Translations under genes and position numbers: made by a program
NCBI RefSeq assembly: GCF_000970205.1
Contig: NZ_CP009512.1
Coordinates: 186,001-250,000 of the forward strand
Reading direction: 5' to 3'
DNA: 64,000 nucleotides
From: Methanosarcina mazei S-6
GTDB lineage: Archaea; Halobacteriota; Methanosarcinia; Methanosarcinales; Methanosarcinaceae
Part shown: piece after piece, positions 48,607 to 58,017 of the stretch
How positions within the stretch are numbered: position 1 is the first letter of the stretch
How the letters are laid out: every line of letters starts with the position of its first letter
Notes under the pieces: generated by a model
Databases searched by the model: none
Seen by the model: the letters and a program-made list of their open reading frames with translations, nothing else
Told to the model about the DNA's origin: nothing

Positions 48607-50703
48607 TTATTCATTTTTATATTCTATTGAAAGTCTTGGCATCTGATTTTTGTTTTGCCATTCCGAACTGTAGAATGCAATATAGTCACTGTCTTCCGCT
48701 CTGGATTTTATAAGAAAACCGGTATTTTCATATTTCCCGCTAATGTATTCCCTTACAAGCTCTGTTACGTCCAGCTCATAATACCTGTTATCAGGAAGAC
48801 TACTGCTCTTAAAAGTTATTGTGGAATAAGGAGTGCTGCCCTGAGATACTCCATTTTTATCGTACCAGTCCCCTCCTGGATTTTTCCATGGAGTGTTTAT
48901 TTCTCTCGCGCCCCATGAAATATGTTCTTCACACCATTTTTCAGGCCTGTATACTTCGAGAATAGTATCTTCCTTTCGGGATTCTTCGGGGTAATACCAG
49001 AATAGAGAAAGAGTTGCTTTTTCAATTTTATTTGTTTTATTCAGTTGTCCCAGCTCAAAAAGTATAACTCCTCTGTACTTCCCGCCATCCGGGCTTTCTC
49101 CAACGTCGATATATTCAGTGTCCCTCAACGTCGAGTCAGGATTTTCTTCCTTCAGTCTATTGTCTGAGATTACCAGGGGTAAGACAATTTCAAGTTCCTC
49201 ATTGTCAGATTCTCCCGAAATAAAACTTAAAAAAATCTTTTTTATAGATCTTATAATCTCTGAAATCGTTCTTTTTATCTCATATATAAGACCTTTTTTC
49301 TGTCCTATATCAATGCCGTCATCTATTTCATACGATATATTCTGTGGGCCGGACTTTATCGCCTCCGCACAGGGCAAATCCTGTATCTCTGAAGGGTCGT
49401 CTTTATTCAGCTGCTCTATCAGTTCGGGGGTGGCTTCTCTGTCCGATGTAGATTCAGCATGCATATAGTTCCCACCGGCATTGTTCAGGAGACAGTTATT
49501 TTGTAGGATAAATGAATGACTGTCTTCTAACTGATTATAAAATGCATAACCTTCTCCGGCTGTAGGACTTGACCGGGTATTAATTATTATATTATTTCTA
49601 GCAGTGGTCGTATAATCTGATCCCGGAGATGAAAACTCTTCATCTACCTGTTTATGGGCAATTGCCGCTCCGTAGCACCCATCGAATACATTGTCTTCTA
49701 TAAGGGTATTATAAAATCCGTTGAGGACCACGCCCCCTGCCCAGGCAGCGCCAGGATTAATTCCGGTTTTGTAAAATCTGTTATTGTGTATGTATACATC
49801 TTTTGCGGAATCTTTTGAATATGCAGGCCCGTAACCAGTAATCCAGATCCCTGCTGCATTTGTCTCGTACAGCAGGTTATTATAAATCTCAATATCATCC
49901 ATTACCGTTGAAGAACCCGTTTTCTGGATCTCAATTCCGGCTCCCCCTTCTCCCTCGGAATTAATGATATTATTATAGAATTTCACATGATTTCCATTAT
50001 ATACCCTGAGCCCGCTATTTGTTCTGCATGTTATTTTATTGTTCCATGCCCCTATGTCTGAACTGTAGATGATATAAAGAGCATCATGCCCGACTTTATA
50101 TACTGTGTTATTATAAAACTGGATATCAGAGCCTTTTACAACTTTCAACCCATCTCCATGGCTGTCGTGCATGTACATATCATAAACTCTGATATTTTTG
50201 CAGTTCAGGAAGTGAACCAGGTTATGATATCCTTTTCCCCTGCTTTTTTCTCTATTCCCATCATGGTTCCCGTCAATTTCAAAACCTTTTACAGTAATAT
50301 TCTGGCTTTCCGAGCTGTCTCTCTGGGTGATAAGGGGCTTCTCCAATGGCCAGTCTGCTTTATCCTTAAGTTTTATCACGGCTGTAGGGTCCCCTTCCAG
50401 GATAGTATTGCTCCCCACAAAAATGCTGTCTGAGATCAAGTATGTGTTTGGACCTTTCAAATGAACTGTTGTAAACTCAGGGTTTTCTGCTACATATGCG
50501 AGGGCTTCATTAATCTCTATATGGTCATCGGTGCCATCACAGTTGAAATCCCCACTCCCGTCAGTACTTACGTAAACCGTCATTTCGGTTTGGGAAGTTG
50601 AAAGGGTAATAGTTACACCTGCGACCAGAATAATAAGAATTAAAATCAGGATTCCTTTATTCTTTTTTTCTCCCTGTCTATGTATCCAGTTATTTTCGTT
50701 CAT
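48607..50703 (-). CDS. Secreted beta-helix protein with one disaggregatase-type repeat
   Basis: 698 residues. N-terminal hydrophobic segment (about 18-36), MTVYVSTDGSGDFNCDG, a disaggregatase-related beta-helix with HGDGLK, GHDALY and TNSGLRVY, then an unusual linker of about 70 residues with IKRTISEIIRSIKKIFLSFI (possibly amphipathic or membrane-associating), and a single C-terminal Disaggr_repeat opening with DNRLKEENPDS. The repeat is more diverged than those of the three-repeat proteins. ATG at 50703 follows GGGGATA; a TTG four codons upstream overlaps that site. Likely extracellular, acting on or bound to the matrix glycan. Confidence 0.87.
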   Translation of the reverse strand: MNENNWIHRQGEKKNKGILILILIILVAGVTITLSTSQTEMTVYVSTDGSGDFNCDGTDDHIEINEALAYVAENPEFTTVHLKGPNTYLISDSIFVGSNTILEGDPTAVIKLKDKADWPLEKPLITQRDSSESQNITVKGFEIDGNHDGNREKSRGKGYHNLVHFLNCKNIRVYDMYMHDSHGDGLKVVKGSDIQFYNNTVYKVGHDALYIIYSSDIGAWNNKITCRTNSGLRVYNGNHVKFYNNIINSEGEGGAGIEIQKTGSSTVMDDIEIYNNLLYETNAAGIWITGYGPAYSKDSAKDVYIHNNRFYKTGINPGAAWAGGVVLNGFYNTLIEDNVFDGCYGAAIAHKQVDEEFSSPGSDYTTTARNNIIINTRSSPTAGEGYAFYNQLEDSHSFILQNNCLLNNAGGNYMHAESTSDREATPELIEQLNKDDPSEIQDLPCAEAIKSGPQNISYEIDDGIDIGQKKGLIYEIKRTISEIIRSIKKIFLSFISGESDNEELEIVLPLVISDNRLKEENPDSTLRDTEYIDVGESPDGGKYRGVILFELGQLNKTNKIEKATLSLFWYYPEESRKEDTILEVYRPEKWCEEHISWGAREINTPWKNPGGDWYDKNGVSQGSTPYSTITFKSSSLPDNRYYELDVTELVREYISGKYENTGFLIKSRAEDSDYIAFYSSEWQNKNQMPRLSIEYKNE

Positions 50704-51066
50704 CTGTATCCCCAATACACTTAACTATAACTCTCTAAGCTTAAAAAAAGTTATCTGTGGAAATCTAAAATAAATTTAAAAGAAATAATGGAACCCTTTA
50801 TATTCTCTAAGGCTTAAGGAGCTTGATTTCTGAATATATTGTCTATCTCCTCTGCAACACTATTAATACATACCTCCCAATAATTTGTAAATATTTAATG
50901 TGTTGTCCGAATCATGGGTTGTAAAAGTTGAAAATAAGTTAATTGCTTTTAAAAGTAGTCAGATAGATTTAATCCTAATATAAAAACAAATCCCTGAAAA
51001 TTTAAGCCAGAATATTTATTTCAGGGATGGAATTAAATTTTAACTCAAAAGATACCTGAAAATAAA
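50704..51066. other. Intergenic region between two beta-helix genes
   Basis: AT-rich spacer between two genes on the same strand. It should carry the promoter of the 48607-50703 gene; no unambiguous TATA box or terminator chosen. Confidence 0.35.
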
Positions 51067-52677
51067 TTATATCTGGATTTTAAAGCAGAATAAAAGGAAT
51101 ATCCTCAGGAGTGTCCTTAGTATCCTCCATTCTGGTGAAAGTATCTCATTCCACCATGCAACATATCCGGGCATCACCCCTGACTTTGATGCTTCTTCGG
51201 TGTTTCCATATCTCCCTATATTGATCCTGCCCCCATTGTCATCAGGCTCATTGGAGCAATCAGAGGACGGATATCCAGCGTCAATGCAGGGTGATGTCTG
51301 GAAATCTTTTACCCATGTTTTTCCATTCCATCTGCCGCCTATTGATCTTAGATGGTAATCATTTTCCTTCTGATTTGCAAATCGGGGGTTCTCATATATA
51401 TCACCTGTCGAATTTGCATTTTTATAGTTTCCTGCCGTATTATTGTAAAAGCAGTTATTTTCCAGTATAAAGCTGTGGGTTTCAGGCAGATAATTAATTA
51501 CACCATACCCTGTACCTTCCGGGTCGTTCTTACGTTCAAGTGTGTCCACTATGATATTATTGCGCACAATGGTTGTATATCCAGTATCTTTTGGTGAGAG
51601 ATCCGTAGAATATCCCGTAGGGTGCATCAGGGCAATGGCAGTATGATATGTCCCGTCAAACACGTTATTCTCTATCAGGGTATTGTAAAACCCGCTGGTT
51701 ACAATACCTCCTACCCAGTCAATGTTCGGGTTCGTGCCTGTACTATAAAATATATTATGGTGAATTTGGACATTCTGAGCTTCTTCTGTTGAATATGAAT
51801 TGTCGTAACCTACCAGCCAGATTCCGGGCCCATAAGTGTTGTAGATAGTATTATTATAGACTTCTATATCGTCCATAACGGCTGAAGATTTTTGAATTTG
51901 AATCCCGGGTCCTCCTGCACTCCAGTGATAGAAGGAATCAATAACATTATCATGGAATTTTACATGATTTGAATCCCATACTCTAAGCCCGCTGTTGGTC
52001 CTGCAGGTTATTGTATTATTCCAGGCTTTCAGATATTGAGACTGGATCCCATAGAGACCTTCATGCCCGAGCTTATATACCTTATTATTGTAGAACTGGA
52101 TATTGGAACTATTTTCAACTTTCAATCCATCTCCATGACCGTCGTGCATATACATGTCATGAACCTGAATATTTGTTGTGTTATTGAGATAGATCAGGTT
52201 ATAATATCCTTCACCTTTATTTTTTTCCTCATTCCCATCATGATTCCCGTCAATTTCGAAACCTCTTATGGTAATATTCTGTTCCGAAAAATCTCTCTGG
52301 GTAATGAGAGGCTTCAAGGACGGCCAATCTGCTCTGTCTTTGAGTTTTATTACAGCTGTAGAATCCCCCTGAAAGGTTACATTGCTTCCTATCAAAATGC
52401 TGTCCGAGATAACGTATGTGTTTGGACCTTTCAAGTGGACTGTTGTAAACTCAGGGTTTTCTGCTACGTATGCGAGGGCTTCATTGATCTCTATCTGGTC
52501 GTCAGTTCCGTTACAGTTATAGTCACCTCTCCCATCTCCAGCCACGTAAACAGTTTCTTCCGGTAGCGTTATGGAAAGGGCTGTTGTAGTCGTCACAACC
52601 AGAAGTATAAAGACTGTAATGCAAACTCCCATTTTTTTCCTGTTTTTCCATATATTTGCCAGATCTTTCCCACTCAT
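51067..52677 (-). CDS. Secreted beta-helix protein, no C-terminal repeats, close to the 6816 protein
   Basis: 536 residues. Hydrophobic segment (about 16-34) after a Lys/Arg-rich start, VYVAGDGRGDYNCNG, a disaggregatase-related beta-helix with HGDGLK, GHEGLY (His-Glu in place of His-Asp) and TNSGLRVW, and a hydrophobic tail ILRTLLRIFLLFCF like that of the 6816-8423 protein. The two proteins match over their whole length, including SGVMPGY before the tail, so they form a repeat-free subfamily that is perhaps membrane-anchored at both ends. AGGGATGAAAA precedes the ATG. Confidence 0.87.
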   Translation of the reverse strand: MSGKDLANIWKNRKKMGVCITVFILLVVTTTTALSITLPEETVYVAGDGRGDYNCNGTDDQIEINEALAYVAENPEFTTVHLKGPNTYVISDSILIGSNVTFQGDSTAVIKLKDRADWPSLKPLITQRDFSEQNITIRGFEIDGNHDGNEEKNKGEGYYNLIYLNNTTNIQVHDMYMHDGHGDGLKVENSSNIQFYNNKVYKLGHEGLYGIQSQYLKAWNNTITCRTNSGLRVWDSNHVKFHDNVIDSFYHWSAGGPGIQIQKSSAVMDDIEVYNNTIYNTYGPGIWLVGYDNSYSTEEAQNVQIHHNIFYSTGTNPNIDWVGGIVTSGFYNTLIENNVFDGTYHTAIALMHPTGYSTDLSPKDTGYTTIVRNNIIVDTLERKNDPEGTGYGVINYLPETHSFILENNCFYNNTAGNYKNANSTGDIYENPRFANQKENDYHLRSIGGRWNGKTWVKDFQTSPCIDAGYPSSDCSNEPDDNGGRINIGRYGNTEEASKSGVMPGYVAWWNEILSPEWRILRTLLRIFLLFCFKIQI

Positions 52678-53249
52678 TTTTCATCCCTGTGTCCTGAGAT
52701 ATAACCCTCCAATCTCGAAAAAAGTTTATTAATGCAAGAACAGAACTGTTATGGAGGTCTTCAAGAAGCGTGAAGTTGTCAATGATCTCAGAGGCTTAAT
52801 CTTTATAACAATCCAAAGTGATTAATTCCACATTTCTGTTTTTTTCTTAAATATATGCAGGCTATTAAATAATGATAATAATCATTGATTGCCGCAGTAT
52901 ACAAATAGCTTGTGTGAGTAAAATTGTTCTGTTTGTTCCGGAACAATATAGTGTGGACAGCCGCACGGTTCCGAATCTTTTTGTCGACAGAATTCTATCT
53001 GGAAATAATTTTATTTATGGCTGCAGGTTCAGGATTGAAACAGTAATATACGGGCACTTTTGAAAATATTCACTGTTAAACTATTTCTCCATTCTAAAAT
53101 AAGCTAATATACTCAAAATGGTCCTGTATTTGTTCTGGAGTTTTCTATAAAAAGCAGAGAGGAGAAACTGAAATATCCGGTAAGGAGATTTTTATAATCT
53201 CACAAACACCGGATTTTTCAAGTTGTCTCTTTCAATTAAGGGTGCCAGA
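52678..53249. other. Intergenic region with palindrome and hairpin
   Basis: Contains the perfect 14-base palindrome TTGTTCCGGAACAA (52933-52946), 256 bases upstream of the 51067-52677 gene, and a hairpin (53175-53214) just after the next gene. No credible coding frame. Confidence 0.5.
53175..53214 (-). terminator. Stem-loop after the 53250-55130 gene
   Basis: ATCCGGT/ACCGGAT (7 bp) enclosing GAGAT/ATCTC, about 35 bases after the stop codon. Plausible terminator or 3' end structure. Confidence 0.45.
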
Positions 53250-55130
53250 TTATATTTTTTCTTCTATGGCCAGCATTGGGCGCTGGTTTTCATCATCAAT
53301 TTCACTGCTGTAGAATGCTACATAGTCTGCATTCTCAGCACGAGTTTTTATAAGGAACCCTGTGTTTTCGTATTCGCCGCTGACATACTCTTTTACGAGG
53401 TCTGTTACGTTCAGCTCGTAGTACCTGTTATCCGGTATATCACTGCCCTTAATAGTTATTGTGGCATATGGCGCATCTCCCTGAGAGACGTTATTCATGT
53501 CAAACCAGTCTCCTCCGGGCTGTGTCCAGAGCACCCCATTGTCCCTGGTGTTCCAGGTTACATTTTCAGGGTTCCAGGCTGCAGCTGGTCTGTATACTTC
53601 TACGATTGTGTCCTCTGGCCTTTCAATTCCATCGGGATAGTACCAGTAGAGAGACAGAGTGGCGTTGCTAATATTTTCTGCATCGTTGTATTCGCTAAGA
53701 TTAAATAAAAGCAGGTCTCTGTACTTTCCTATTCCAGGTCTGCCTCCGATGTCGAGATATTCTTTGTCCTGATAAACCGTATCAGGTGTGGATTCCTTGA
53801 GGCGATTGTCTATAATGTCTGATGAATTCTCTTCTGTCAATGATGTCTTATCAGTTTCAACCACCTGTTCAGGATCAGCCTCTGTTACAGGAGGCTCATT
53901 AACTCCTGTCTGGGTGCCTGTCTCAGATATATTCTCTTCTGTCAGTGATTCGTTATCAGTTCCAGTAACCTGTTCTGGAGCAGCTTTCGTTATTGCAGTT
54001 TCATTCTCTGCTGTCTGGTTATTAGCTGTTGCAACTTCAGTTTCTTTTGTTTCCGTAGCAAGTTCGGTTTCTTCTGTCTCTGTTACAGCAGTTTCATTAG
54101 CAGTCGTCTTGGAATCTTCCTCGGATGTCGGGCTTACAGTTTCTGTACTCTGTGAGCTCGATGCACTTCCAAGAGATCCATAGCCGTATCCTTTGGCTAC
54201 CCAGTTCTCAACGCTGCGGTCAGATGGTCCTAATATGTTTGAACCTGAGCCCACCTGGATGTAAGGTGACACGTTCCACATTACATTATCACGAACGCTA
54301 ATCGACCCGCTTGCGTGCCAGTTACCAATGCCTGCGCTGCTGCTTGATCCTTTGTAATCATGCATAATGTTGTGATGGACATCCACATTTGTCAGTTTGT
54401 TTTCCAGCTCAACACAGCACCATCCGGACCCGGCGCTACCTGTGAAGGTGTTGTGATCTACCTCTATATTTGCACAGTTGTCTACCCTGACACCTGTGTT
54501 GGTCTGAACCTCAACATAACAGTTGTACATTCTGGAATCTTTAGTGCCGGATAAAAATGACACTCCATCGTGTCCTGAAGACTGCATCCTGCAGTTATAT
54601 ACTTCTATTCCAGAACTCTTACTGATTCTGACACCGTCACCATATAGATAACGAGTCAGTAAGATATCATGTACCTTAGCATTGGTTACAGACGTCAATT
54701 TTATGCAGTTCCGGTAGTCTCCGTGCCCTCCATCTTTAGGTCCTGTTGCTGTACTCTGGAACTGAAGATGAGATACTTCTACGTTAGAAACACCTGATCC
54801 GTATATGTAGGCAGGTGATCCATCTGAGTTACAGACTGAGCCGGTAGCAAAGATTATTGTATTGTCGCCCGCACCTTTCAGTACTACATTGGATTTCAAA
54901 ATTATAGGTGCACTTATCTTATAAGTGCCAGCACCGAGAATAACCACTCCCGGGTTGCTTGATGTTGCTCCTGCTGCTACGGAGTTTATTGCGTTATTAA
55001 TTGCAGTCTGGGCATCTGAGCCAGATGCAGGATTTACAGTTACTGTATTCTGTGCGCCTAACGCAGCGGGTACGGCTGTTAAAATAAGGCACGTTATTAG
55101 GAATAGGGTTCCTATCTGTCTTTTTAGCAT
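53250..55130 (-). CDS. Secreted pectate-lyase-like beta-helix protein with Thr/Glu-rich linker and one disaggregatase-type repeat
   Basis: 626 residues. Classic signal peptide MLKRQIGTLFLITCLILTAVP with ALGA before the cut, then a beta-helix starting TVNPASGSDAQTAINNAI, of a different subtype from its neighbours but with the same YGDGVR, GHDGVS and TNTGVRV sites. A Thr/Glu/Ser-rich linker (about 330-440) contains imperfect repeats such as TEETELATETKETEVATA, and one Disaggr_repeat (DNRLKESTPDTVYQD) closes the protein. The linker looks like an O-glycosylated spacer (inferred). ATG at 55130 follows AGGTGATACG; the frame extends upstream but without a site. The 5' end is copied twice more just upstream. 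Confidence 0.88.
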   Translation of the reverse strand: MLKRQIGTLFLITCLILTAVPAALGAQNTVTVNPASGSDAQTAINNAINSVAAGATSSNPGVVILGAGTYKISAPIILKSNVVLKGAGDNTIIFATGSVCNSDGSPAYIYGSGVSNVEVSHLQFQSTATGPKDGGHGDYRNCIKLTSVTNAKVHDILLTRYLYGDGVRISKSSGIEVYNCRMQSSGHDGVSFLSGTKDSRMYNCYVEVQTNTGVRVDNCANIEVDHNTFTGSAGSGWCCVELENKLTNVDVHHNIMHDYKGSSSSAGIGNWHASGSISVRDNVMWNVSPYIQVGSGSNILGPSDRSVENWVAKGYGYGSLGSASSSQSTETVSPTSEEDSKTTANETAVTETEETELATETKETEVATANNQTAENETAITKAAPEQVTGTDNESLTEENISETGTQTGVNEPPVTEADPEQVVETDKTSLTEENSSDIIDNRLKESTPDTVYQDKEYLDIGGRPGIGKYRDLLLFNLSEYNDAENISNATLSLYWYYPDGIERPEDTIVEVYRPAAAWNPENVTWNTRDNGVLWTQPGGDWFDMNNVSQGDAPYATITIKGSDIPDNRYYELNVTDLVKEYVSGEYENTGFLIKTRAENADYVAFYSSEIDDENQRPMLAIEEKI

Positions 55131-55178
55131 CGTATCACCTTTGGGTTGGGATTGGAATTTGAGTGGATTCAAAAAGTT

Positions 55179-55271
55179 TTATTGGGTTTCAGTATATTTC
55201 CCCAAAGCACATACGAACGTTAGACGAGAACATGCTGTCAGGAATAGGGTTTCCTTCTTAATTTCAGGCAT
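55179..55271 (-). pseudogene. Truncated signal-peptide copy 2
   Basis: 30 codons, MPEIKKETLFLTACSRLTFV and ten more residues, then TAA. TLFL, LT and ALG line up with the signal peptide of the downstream gene. AGGTGATACG lies directly before the ATG. Probably a broken duplicate, although still translatable. Confidence 0.5.
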
Positions 55272-55308
55272 CGTATCACCTTTGGGCCGGATTCGAATTT
55301 GGGTAAAC

Positions 55309-55410
55309 TCAAAAAACTATAGAATCGTTTTGTATTTCTCCAGCAGTTGATACGGTTGTTAAAATAAGAAATGCCGTCAGGATTAGGGTATCTAAATTCT
55401 TTTTTAGCAT
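55309..55410 (-). pseudogene. Truncated signal-peptide copy 3
   Basis: 33 codons, MLKKNLDTLILTAFLILTTV and 13 more residues, then TGA. Closer to a functional signal peptide than copy 2. AGGCGATACG precedes the ATG. Confidence 0.5.
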
Positions 55411-55502
55411 CGTATCGCCTCTGGATTGGATTTAAAATTTGAGTAAACTCAAAAATCCAGGATTATCGCATACTTTTCCCAGATATTTCTCAAAATTCCA
55501 TA

Positions 55503-55516
55503 TTACGTACTCGTAA
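55503..55516. promoter_or_regulatory. Palindromic site 1 in the upstream region
   Basis: TTACG-TACT-CGTAA. It sits in an imperfect repeat of about 55 bases that recurs about 98 bases away. Possible operator. Confidence 0.4.
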
Positions 55517-55599
55517 CGTTTTTCCGAACTATCTAATTAGACCTATTCTGTTTTTAACATCTAATTATGTCGGGTCTATACGGTAATTCAAAAATTCTA

Positions 55600-55615
55600 A
55601 TTACGTTTGCGTAAT
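55600..55615. promoter_or_regulatory. Palindromic site 2 in the upstream region
   Basis: ATTACG-TTTG-CGTAAT, 6-bp arms, in the second copy of the same upstream repeat (compare TCTAATTAGACC with TCCAATTGGTCC downstream of each site). Confidence 0.4.
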
Positions 55616-55886
55616 ATTTTTGAATCTATCCAATTGGTCCTCTGCGATTTATGTGGGGCGGACACGTTGCACACAGAGTTTCACTCTCCAATCACATTAT
55701 AGGGATCAGTCACTGGAGGTGGTCGGGCACTGAAGTTCTGGCTTTTCATTTTTTTAAAAGCCTTGATTTCAGGATATCTTCTTAAAGTCAATATTTCCTG
55801 TTCTTTTTTACCTTCACTTTTAGCCCGGTCAACCCATCTACGAAATTTTTGTTTACTTATATAGTTCTGAGTTGACTTTGATGGTT

Positions 55887-56102
55887 ATGCGATCCTATTA
55901 TAAAATATTTTTGTTATTTTTTTTAAATTTTTTATATAGTATTGGAGACATTTTATTAACCCTGTACGCCTCATCATACGGAAAAAAGAGTTTTTTAGAG
56001 AGAAAGTTGCAAAAATACCCCGATTTTACCCGGCAGATTCTAAAAGCAGAACAGTTTATATATTATTTATCTGAGGCTTGCTTAATTTCAGGAGTGTTGT
56101 GA
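55887..56102 (+). CDS. Possible small membrane protein, perhaps leaderless
   Basis: 71 codons from MRSYYKIFLL with one or two hydrophobic segments (IFLLFFLNFLYSIGDILLTL; a weaker one at the end), a basic middle, and TGA. A TATA-like CTTATATAG at 55856-55864 would place transcription start almost at this ATG. There is no ribosome binding site, and the composition could arise by chance in AT-rich DNA. Not recognised. Confidence 0.28.
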   Translation: MRSYYKIFLLFFLNFLYSIGDILLTLYASSYGKKSFLERKLQKYPDFTRQILKAEQFIYYLSEACLISGVL

Positions 56103-56156
56103 GCTCTATTCCGGTTTGCAAAAGTAATATTTGAACAGAAATTATTCATTATTTCT

Positions 56157-56197
56157 TCTTTGTTATTTTTTCTTTGTTATTTTTTCTTTGTTATTTC
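56157..56197. repeat. 14-bp tandem repeat, three units
   Basis: TCTTTGTTATTTTT three times in a row, the last unit cut short. Confidence 0.7.
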
Positions 56198-56477
56198 TTC
56201 TTTTATACTGTACTTCTCTCTATTTCCTAGCTCCAATATTAGTTCTAATATTCTTGCGGATACGAAGGTGCGGATTCATAAATAATATTTAAAGTCCCCC
56301 TTCTTTTTTCCTGCATCTGTCTTATATTTATGGCAAACTTTCCATTTTTCTCTTTAATGGTTGCTTCTCCTATCTACTTACAGTATTATTCTATATGCTG
56401 TATAAATATGAAGTCTATGTTGGTAAAACAGCTTCAATAGCCAGATAATTTATTTTTTATGTATAATATTCTCATTA

Positions 56478-56622
56478 AAAAAGTGGGTATTTTTCCTGAA
56501 GTATCCTTAAAAATGTGAGCCCATAAATAAAATCAGGATTAATACAGTTAAAAAGTGGGTATTTTTCCTGAAGTATCCTTAAAAATGTGAGCCCATAAAT
56601 AAAATCAGGATTAATACAGTTA
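56478..56622. repeat. Perfect 72-bp tandem duplication
   Basis: A 72-base unit starting AAAAAGTGGGTATTTTTCCT and ending AATACAGTT is present twice without a mismatch. The surrounding 1-kb gap (56103-57111) is AT-rich and holds no other gene that I can support. Confidence 0.9.
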
Positions 56623-57111
56623 TATATTTTCTCTTCACTCAAACATAAATTACTTTATTTATTCCTGGATATACTCTCAAAGCCTTCTATGTTTTATAAA
56701 ATATATACCTCGATAAGTTAAGCACAATTTCCGTTTAAATATCACTTATGGATTTTTAAAATTTAAGGGGCCCTGTAGATAGGCTAATAAATTTAAACTT
56801 AATTGCTTTATGTCTTAAAATAAGAAGAATATGTCTATTTATTGAAGTTATCTAATATTTATAGTTATCTCCTCTTTTAAATTTATTTTTTCTGTTTTCA
56901 TTGTTACGGTCTACTTTATTTAATCTAGTCTCACTTTGTCTTCATATTTGCTCTGATATTTCAAAAAATCTTTTATACTCTCTATGTGTTCCTTTAAGTG
57001 GGGAGGCTTTCTAAGCCAGTGGGGAAATGCATAGTTGCCTATTCCCATTCTTATTAAAACTTCCATTTTTGTTTCACGATATATGCATTATAGCTCGTAT
57101 TGAGGGATTTC

Positions 57112-58017
57112 ATGAAAGGTAGTCTTTCAGTTACGGTTGATCTTGAAGATTGGTATCATATTCCTTCCGTCTGCAGCTCACCTTTTTCGGTTTACAGGAA
57201 TGTAGACGAATTCTTTAGGAGCTGGCACGGCAGGTATGATTACTTGAGTGAGCCTACAAAAAGGGTACTGGACATTCTTGACGAATTCAATGTAAATGCT
57301 ACTTTTTTTGTTGTTGCAGACACTATAGAACATTATCCGGGATTGGTAGAGTCAATTGCAGATAGAGGGCACGAGCTTGCCTGTCACGGGCTTAGCCATG
57401 CTTGCAAGATTGATCCTGAGACAAAAAAACAATTAATGAGTGTGGAGGAGTTTGAACAAAGGACTCTGACTGCAAAGAAAATGCTTGAAAAAATCAGTGG
57501 AGAAAAGCTAATAGGTTATAGGGCACCAAATGCCCTTGTAAGCGGTTGGATGATTGATTCCCTTGAAAAGATGGGTTTTAAATATGACTCTTCTGTTTCG
57601 GTAAATTCTTTTTACAATAAAACTGATTCAGCTCTGAGAACAGTTTCATCTTACCCTTATTACCCTGAGGAAACGGAACTTGAAGCAGGGATTGACAGAA
57701 ACTTTCTCGAGTTCCCATGGGCTTACTGTCAGCATGGATTGAAGTTTCCGGCATCAGGCGGCCCGATGCTTCGGTTCCTGGGCTCATCTTTTATACTGGA
57801 CGGGCTTATGCAGAGCCTTAAAAGAGGGCATACCATATTCTATTTCCATCCACTGGATATTTCCTGTGCCAGATTCCCATCTCTTGGAAATAAAAGGCCC
57901 TTTTACTGGTGTATAAAAGGGAGGCTTGTTGAACAGAGAATCCGGCATATCCTGAGTAAATTGGATGATGTTGAAAAGATATCTCTTAGAGATTATCCGG
58001 GAGTATCATGTGTTTAA
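57112..58017 (+). CDS. Polysaccharide deacetylase (exopolysaccharide-locus type)
   Basis: 301 residues. VTVDLEDWYHIP at the N-terminus (the usual VDVEDWYH form), ATFFVVAD, GHELACHGLSH with the H-x3-H metal pair, GYRAPNALVSGWMIDSLEKMGFKYDSS, a FPWAYC substrate-side segment and FYFHPLDI. The motifs match deacetylases of the CE4 family with a DUF3473-like C-terminus, frequent in exopolysaccharide and exosortase loci. It removes acetyl (N-linked) groups from amino sugars of a glycan, here presumably the locus product. ATG at 57112 follows GAGGGATTTC; a TTG four codons earlier is less likely. All expected catalytic residues are present, unlike the 35915 protein. Confidence 0.9.
   Translation: MKGSLSVTVDLEDWYHIPSVCSSPFSVYRNVDEFFRSWHGRYDYLSEPTKRVLDILDEFNVNATFFVVADTIEHYPGLVESIADRGHELACHGLSHACKIDPETKKQLMSVEEFEQRTLTAKKMLEKISGEKLIGYRAPNALVSGWMIDSLEKMGFKYDSSVSVNSFYNKTDSALRTVSSYPYYPEETELEAGIDRNFLEFPWAYCQHGLKFPASGGPMLRFLGSSFILDGLMQSLKRGHTIFYFHPLDISCARFPSLGNKRPFYWCIKGRLVEQRIRHILSKLDDVEKISLRDYPGVSCV

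Follow-up and report, generated by a model that had tools for sequence, protein, structure and literature searches.

The locus raises a simple question: what is the significance of copies of a gene's own beginning that stand upstream of the gene and do not join it? In the stretch of the Methanosarcina mazei S-6 genome analysed here (64,000 nt; hereafter the window), three tandem units of ~140 nt on the minus strand carry ATGs at 55410, 55271 and 55130 and share 62–74% identity. A repeat search returned a single three-member family of 113 nt (at 55063, 55204 and 55343; spacing 141 and 139 nt; identity 62% and 74%), and the neighbouring copies scored E=2e-14 and 5e-10 against the 5′ end of the gene when all 4.14 Mb of the genome were searched: the repeat is thus not a product of chance. 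The sequence AGGYGATACG stands upstream of all three ATGs, with the Shine-Dalgarno-like AGGYGAT three bases before the start. When up to two mismatches were allowed, five matches were found in the window – three of them the array starts – against 0.83 expected, and none of 100 shuffles reached five. The frames opened by the three starts comprise 33, 30 and 626 codons (with ends at 55309, 55179 and 53250, respectively): stops terminate the first two, ~37–57 nt ahead of the next start, and the 626-codon gene is opened by 55130 only. The original prediction of a three-fold tandem copy of leader plus signal-peptide start is thus confirmed: there are three frames headed by a ribosome binding site (RBS), one of which is a full gene.

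The Shine-Dalgarno of copy 3, the outermost, is mismatched (AGGCGAT vs. AGGTGAT), and the hydrophobic core of copy 2 is partly degenerate in this genome. The hairpin TTTGAGTTTACTCAAA was considered as a feature common to all units and rejected, since it is kept in copy 3 and in many cases disrupted in the other two. Predictions of RBS accessibility placed all three array sites largely in paired regions, and a clear switch between them was not found. An antisense ORF (54925–55350, plus strand) that overlaps the 5′ end of the gene and the array was taken to be spurious.

Table 1. Features of the locus, from promoter to gene, in positions of the window.
Feature	Position	Strand	Description
Predicted promoter CAAAAATATTTTATAATA	55896..55913	-	BRE CAAAA + TATA; conservation among aligned species begins here
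Predicted 5′ leader	55131..55875	-	~745 nt; folds below shuffles
Conserved leader domain (RNA model R1)	55626..55722	-	CTCCAAT/ATTGGAG and CTCTG/CAGAG helices, CGTGTCCGCCCCAC core
Palindrome/hairpin 1	55600..55615	-	ATTACGCAAACGTAAT; helix conservation
Helix	55534..55567	-	TAATTAGA/TCTAATTA; compensatory changes
Palindrome/hairpin 2	55502..55517	-	GTTACGAGTACGTAAT; ~98 nt from palindrome 1
Tandem unit 3 (outermost)	55317..55455	-	Hairpin TTTGAGTTTACTCAAA, RBS AGGCGAT, start, signal-peptide codons
Mini-ORF 3	55309..55410	-	33 codons, MLKKNLDTLILTAFLILTTVSTAGEIQNDSIVF then stop; frame changed or lost in 4/18 loci
Tandem unit 2	55176..55316	-	RBS AGGTGAT, start, signal-peptide codons
Mini-ORF 2	55179..55271	-	30 codons, MPEIKKETLFLTACSRLTFVCALGKYTETQ then stop; open in 18/18 loci
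Tandem unit 1	55040..55175	-	RBS AGGTGAT and the gene's own 5′ end; codons 1–25 of low synonymous divergence
Secreted 626-aa protein (predicted)	53250..55130	-	Signal peptide, pectate-lyase-like/beta-helix, C-terminal Disaggr_repeat (DNRLRE)

The array and its gene in Methanosarcina

A 661-nt region of the locus was matched in 29 of 31 Methanosarcina genomes. The aligned triplet set comprises 18 three-unit loci from 17 Methanosarcina genomes (several of these loci being close relatives), with units spaced 135–141 and 140–149 nt apart. In a census of loci, the group that includes the window gene (N-terminus AQNTITVNPTSGSDAQT) has mostly three units per locus, at some loci two and at one locus a single unit. 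Loci of a paralogous group (VAGDGSGDY) usually have one unit (range 1–3), and extra units are often decayed, as are the mini-units of L086, L096 and L113: at these paralogous loci the copies are thus dispensable. Orthologues devoid of copies, which the original prediction had named as evidence that would speak against it, were not the pattern encountered, 18 own-group loci having three units and most others two. A short RBS-bearing ORF upstream of the gene is accordingly conserved in orthologues, as in a regulatory uORF or leader peptide.

A second array in the window genome, of two units, lies upstream of a paralogous beta-helix gene (2,325.6 kb), and the whole-genome search revealed similar 5′ ends in front of different paralogues (90% over 81 nt). 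Two-unit loci of the own group (L089, L035 and L037) contain chimeric mini-units – the front of copy 3 and the end of copy 2 – as would be expected if arrays collapse from three units to two by recombination between units. At one paralogous locus (L109; oriented units 1039 and 1180, reverse strand, 141 nt apart) the frame of the upstream mini-unit appears to be in frame with the gene; the frame lengths are 337 vs. 291 codons, and the product of the longer frame would contain two segments that resemble signal peptides.

The protein matches the PF06848 (Disaggr_repeat) profile with 293 bits (gathering cut-off 33.9) and is a member of that family. By domain content it belongs with the disaggregatase-related Methanosarcina surface proteins (Pfam Disaggr_repeat, Disaggr_assoc). 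Two more genes of the beta-helix/Disaggr_repeat kind lie downstream (51067–52677 and 48607–50715). The C-terminal Disaggr_repeat of the window gene (53250–55130) is absent from L017, a 322-aa orthologue tested in another species. Elsewhere in the window, a gene of 1,110 aa from ~24574 onward (plus strand; L014, 2575–5907) has several DNRLRE-type repeats; it opens with one related start unit and lacks both the palindromes and the promoter-like sequence seen at the leader loci.

A conserved leader

The Methanosarcina promoter consensus consists of BRE (CAAAA), two bases and a TATA box, with the start ~23 bp further on (quoted in PMC11409679). CAAAAATATTTTATAATA fits this BRE/TATA/start arrangement and predicts a transcription start near 55875: an exact match occurs once in the window genome, and the promoter-like sequence is present at most leader loci and also in another genus. 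The distance from predicted start to gene is 743–777 nt in 15 loci; judged from the position of the promoter and this constant length, leader and gene would be carried on the same transcript.

The array occupies the 3′ part of the ~745-nt leader, the 5′ part of which looks like a structured RNA. Folding of the leader lies 4.07 sd below that of dinucleotide shuffles (z −4.07; 20 shuffles), and several helices are kept between promoter and array: GACC/GGTC, CTCCAAT/ATTGGAG, CTCTG/CAGAG, TAATTAGA/TCTAATTA and two ATTACG/CGTAAT hairpins (as judged in an alignment of 39 sequences and a related set of 43). The TAATTAGA/TCTAATTA helix has 28 double-changed cells, a number reached by none of 500 shuffles, and in the other leader helices changes are mostly one-sided. 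RNAalifold, applied to alignments A2 and A3, gave little covariation apart from helix H6b: most of the leader helices thus rest on conservation and single-sided changes. A covariance model of R1 detected this domain in 28 of the 31 Methanosarcina genomes; beyond the genus it gave only two weak matches in 155 genomes (186 genomes of the order were searched in all). Searched with the Rfam 15 covariance models, positions 50001–58000 of the window gave no match at E≤1.

The ATTACG/CGTAAT pair, ~98 nt apart, is found in the window gene's own group. As paired palindromes (ATTACG-N3-5-CGTAAT at the same distance) it occurs at 55600–55615 and 55502–55517 of the window and in L013, and exact ATTACGN4CGTAAT is confined, in the window genome, to its two leader loci; the palindromes may just as well be DNA sites for a protein as hairpins in the RNA. 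Beta-helix/Disaggr_repeat genes of a second genus in the family (L083, L084 and L085; three genes in tandem in L083) share the promoter-like sequence with the window gene, have a related start (MLK..GTRKLIS) and are preceded by leaders of ~440 nt devoid of tandem units. The 2-kb intergenic region upstream of the window's leader includes a 72-bp tandem duplication (97% identical, 56473–56616); four copies of a 14-nt repeat, TTCTTTGTTATTTT, lie at 56142–56211.

Age and constraint of the copies

In a tree of 54 units, copy-1 units form one group (support 100) and copy-2 units another (99). Between-copy distances are equal within and between genomes (0.23–0.26), which argues that ongoing homogenisation is absent, and gene conversion as the source of conservation was rejected, because units cluster by position and not by genome. 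A wider tree that includes paralogous units suggests, with poor support, more than one round of duplication. On these comparisons of sequence the array copies are old, and not recent debris. Repeated duplication of the 5′ end, as originally proposed, is thus the right account of their origin; the accompanying term 'leftovers' is wrong, the copies being ancient and conserved (18 triplet loci, position-wise clustering).

Divergence between loci for the same copy is 0.088 (copy 1), 0.127 (copy 2) and 0.154 (copy 3); for synonymous sites of the gene the values are 0.123 in codons 1–25 and 0.18–0.45 beyond codon 25. Across the 18 loci the divergence of each copy is roughly half that of synonymous sites in the gene body, which indicates constraint on the copies. 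By the same measure, constraint extends to synonymous sites at the gene's own start.

Reading frames and peptides

Copy 2 is open for at least 24 codons in all 18 loci, several of them close relatives; simulations that preserve tree and mutation spectrum gave 13.9 loci (P=0.016). The changes inferred in copy 2 of these partly related loci include none that introduces a stop, where 3.2 would be expected (P=0.03), and the first 25 codons are free of indels, many of which are found in the spacer directly after. The start codon of copy 2 is ATG in 17 loci and GTG in one, and a start is likewise kept in every copy 3. Because some of the 18 loci are close kin the statistics are weakened, and the P values need caution. 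One locus has a truncated copy-3 frame; in three related loci this frame is shifted through the core and then restored: probably two events account for all four.

Nonsynonymous changes in copy 2 number 62, with 63.1 expected, and NG86 and parsimony tests yielded no clear signal of peptide selection. Given an open frame, retention of hydrophobicity was not significant in copy 2 (P=0.22) or copy 3; in the gene's own signal peptide, under the same condition, it was (P=0.014–0.048). Being readable thus seems to matter for copy 2, its residues having no detectable effect, and these comparisons point to selection on the mini-ORF peptides that is weak at most.

A proposed regulatory leader and its alternatives

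We put at about an even chance a regulatory role for the ~745 nt ahead of the gene: a 5′ leader with tandem self-derived uORFs, in which initiation or ribosome transit, together with the RNA sequence, would matter more than the peptide. Transcription would begin from the conserved promoter CAAAAATATTTTATAATA; the 5′ part of the leader would be a folded RNA domain, and the 3′ part holds the two old tandem copies, each comprising the translation-initiation region of the gene and ~25 signal-peptide codons. Ribosomes would initiate at copies 3 and 2 and terminate just ahead of the next RBS, thereby altering the folding of the gene's initiation region or competing for it, and this in turn would set the output of the gene. 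The original prediction of translated leader peptides controlling the gene is plausible on this account – starts and Shine-Dalgarno sequences are conserved, copy 2 is open throughout the triplet set, and the leader itself is conserved – but peptide-level selection is not detectable. Copy 3, with its weaker RBS and its frame altered or lost in four loci, and the variable, often decayed units of paralogous loci also speak against the account.

If the units instead served as a repeated RNA or DNA element, binding an RNA-binding protein or a small RNA, then upstream copies would be decoys or cooperative sites and their frames incidental. Nucleotide constraint in all units, including the synonymous sites of gene codons 1–25 (pS 0.123), accords with such an element, as do the absence of peptide-level selection and the persistence of copy 3 in the four loci with a changed or lost frame. 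However, copy 2 avoids stops and indels beyond what nucleotide constraint predicts, and the trans-acting partner is only putative; we consider this alternative rather unlikely. Also unlikely, to our judgement, is that the copies are neutral relics – old tandem duplications inside a leader that is conserved for other reasons. Unit number varies from one to three, the mini-units at paralogous L086, L096 and L113 are decayed, 4 of the 18 loci show damage to copy 3 and the chimeric two-unit loci indicate collapse of arrays, all of which speaks for relics; but the reduced divergence of the copies relative to synonymous sites in the 18 loci, the retention of starts in every copy 2 and copy 3, and that of the copy-2 frame stand against it.

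The presence of signal-peptide-like mini-ORFs upstream of an exported protein recalls secretion-sensing leader peptides of the SecM/MifM/VemP type, in which the signal peptide of the mini-ORF would engage the translocon and ribosome arrest report export capacity. This we regard as very improbable: a conserved C-terminal arrest motif is absent, the ends vary both in sequence and in length (26–33 codons in intact copy 3, 27–37 in copy 2), hydrophobicity is not selectively kept, and the target is an exported protein of the beta-helix/disaggregatase type, not a translocon or localisation component. That the array is a recombination cassette for swapping secretion signals, a swap also raised in the original prediction, or 5′ ends among paralogues is scarcely credible even though similar 5′ ends occur at different paralogues (90% over 81 nt) and units do recombine, since the positional identity of units is kept across species, a conversion signal is absent, the upstream frames end in stops and supply no signal peptides, and recombination collapses three units to two.

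Known systems and significance

A leader with tandem self-derived uORFs resembles the regulatory uORFs and leader peptides of bacteria and archaea in placing short RBS-bearing frames ahead of a single gene within a long, conserved leader. It differs in that the frames repeat in tandem the start and signal-peptide codons of the gene itself, that selection acts mainly at the nucleotide level and that translation is putative. With the monitoring substrates SecM, MifM and VemP the array shares a signal-peptide-bearing frame ahead of a secretion-related gene; its frames, however, are without arrest motif and only ~30 codons long, are present as two tandem copies, and precede an exported surface protein. 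Long 5′ UTRs are common in Methanosarcina and Methanolobus (PMC5378194, PMC11409679), and the promoter elements at this locus match theirs; the predicted leader nevertheless exceeds the range of 100–500 quoted in PMC11409679 and has tandem initiation regions in addition. In M. mazei, Ribo-seq places 10% of unannotated small ORFs in 5′ UTRs (PMC11456600). In a literature search of incomplete coverage, no archaeal leader was described as containing tandem copies of the start and signal peptide of its own gene; uORFs and long leaders as such are already known. More tentatively, and with rather low probability, the locus may represent a Methanosarcina-specific class of leader, structured RNA followed by self-derived tandem uORFs that meter ribosomes through successive starts, the ribosomes perhaps being targeted to the membrane by nascent signal peptides.

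If the array does work as a leader, then it would exemplify tandem uORFs that arose when the 5′ end of a gene was itself duplicated and that have been retained throughout a genus, and it would offer an archaeal model of translation control through successive initiation sites. The model is directly testable because genetics and reporters exist for M. mazei and M. acetivorans, and Ribo-seq for M. mazei also. Methanosarcina is a major producer of methane, and control of matrix-degrading surface proteins bears on its aggregation and dispersal.
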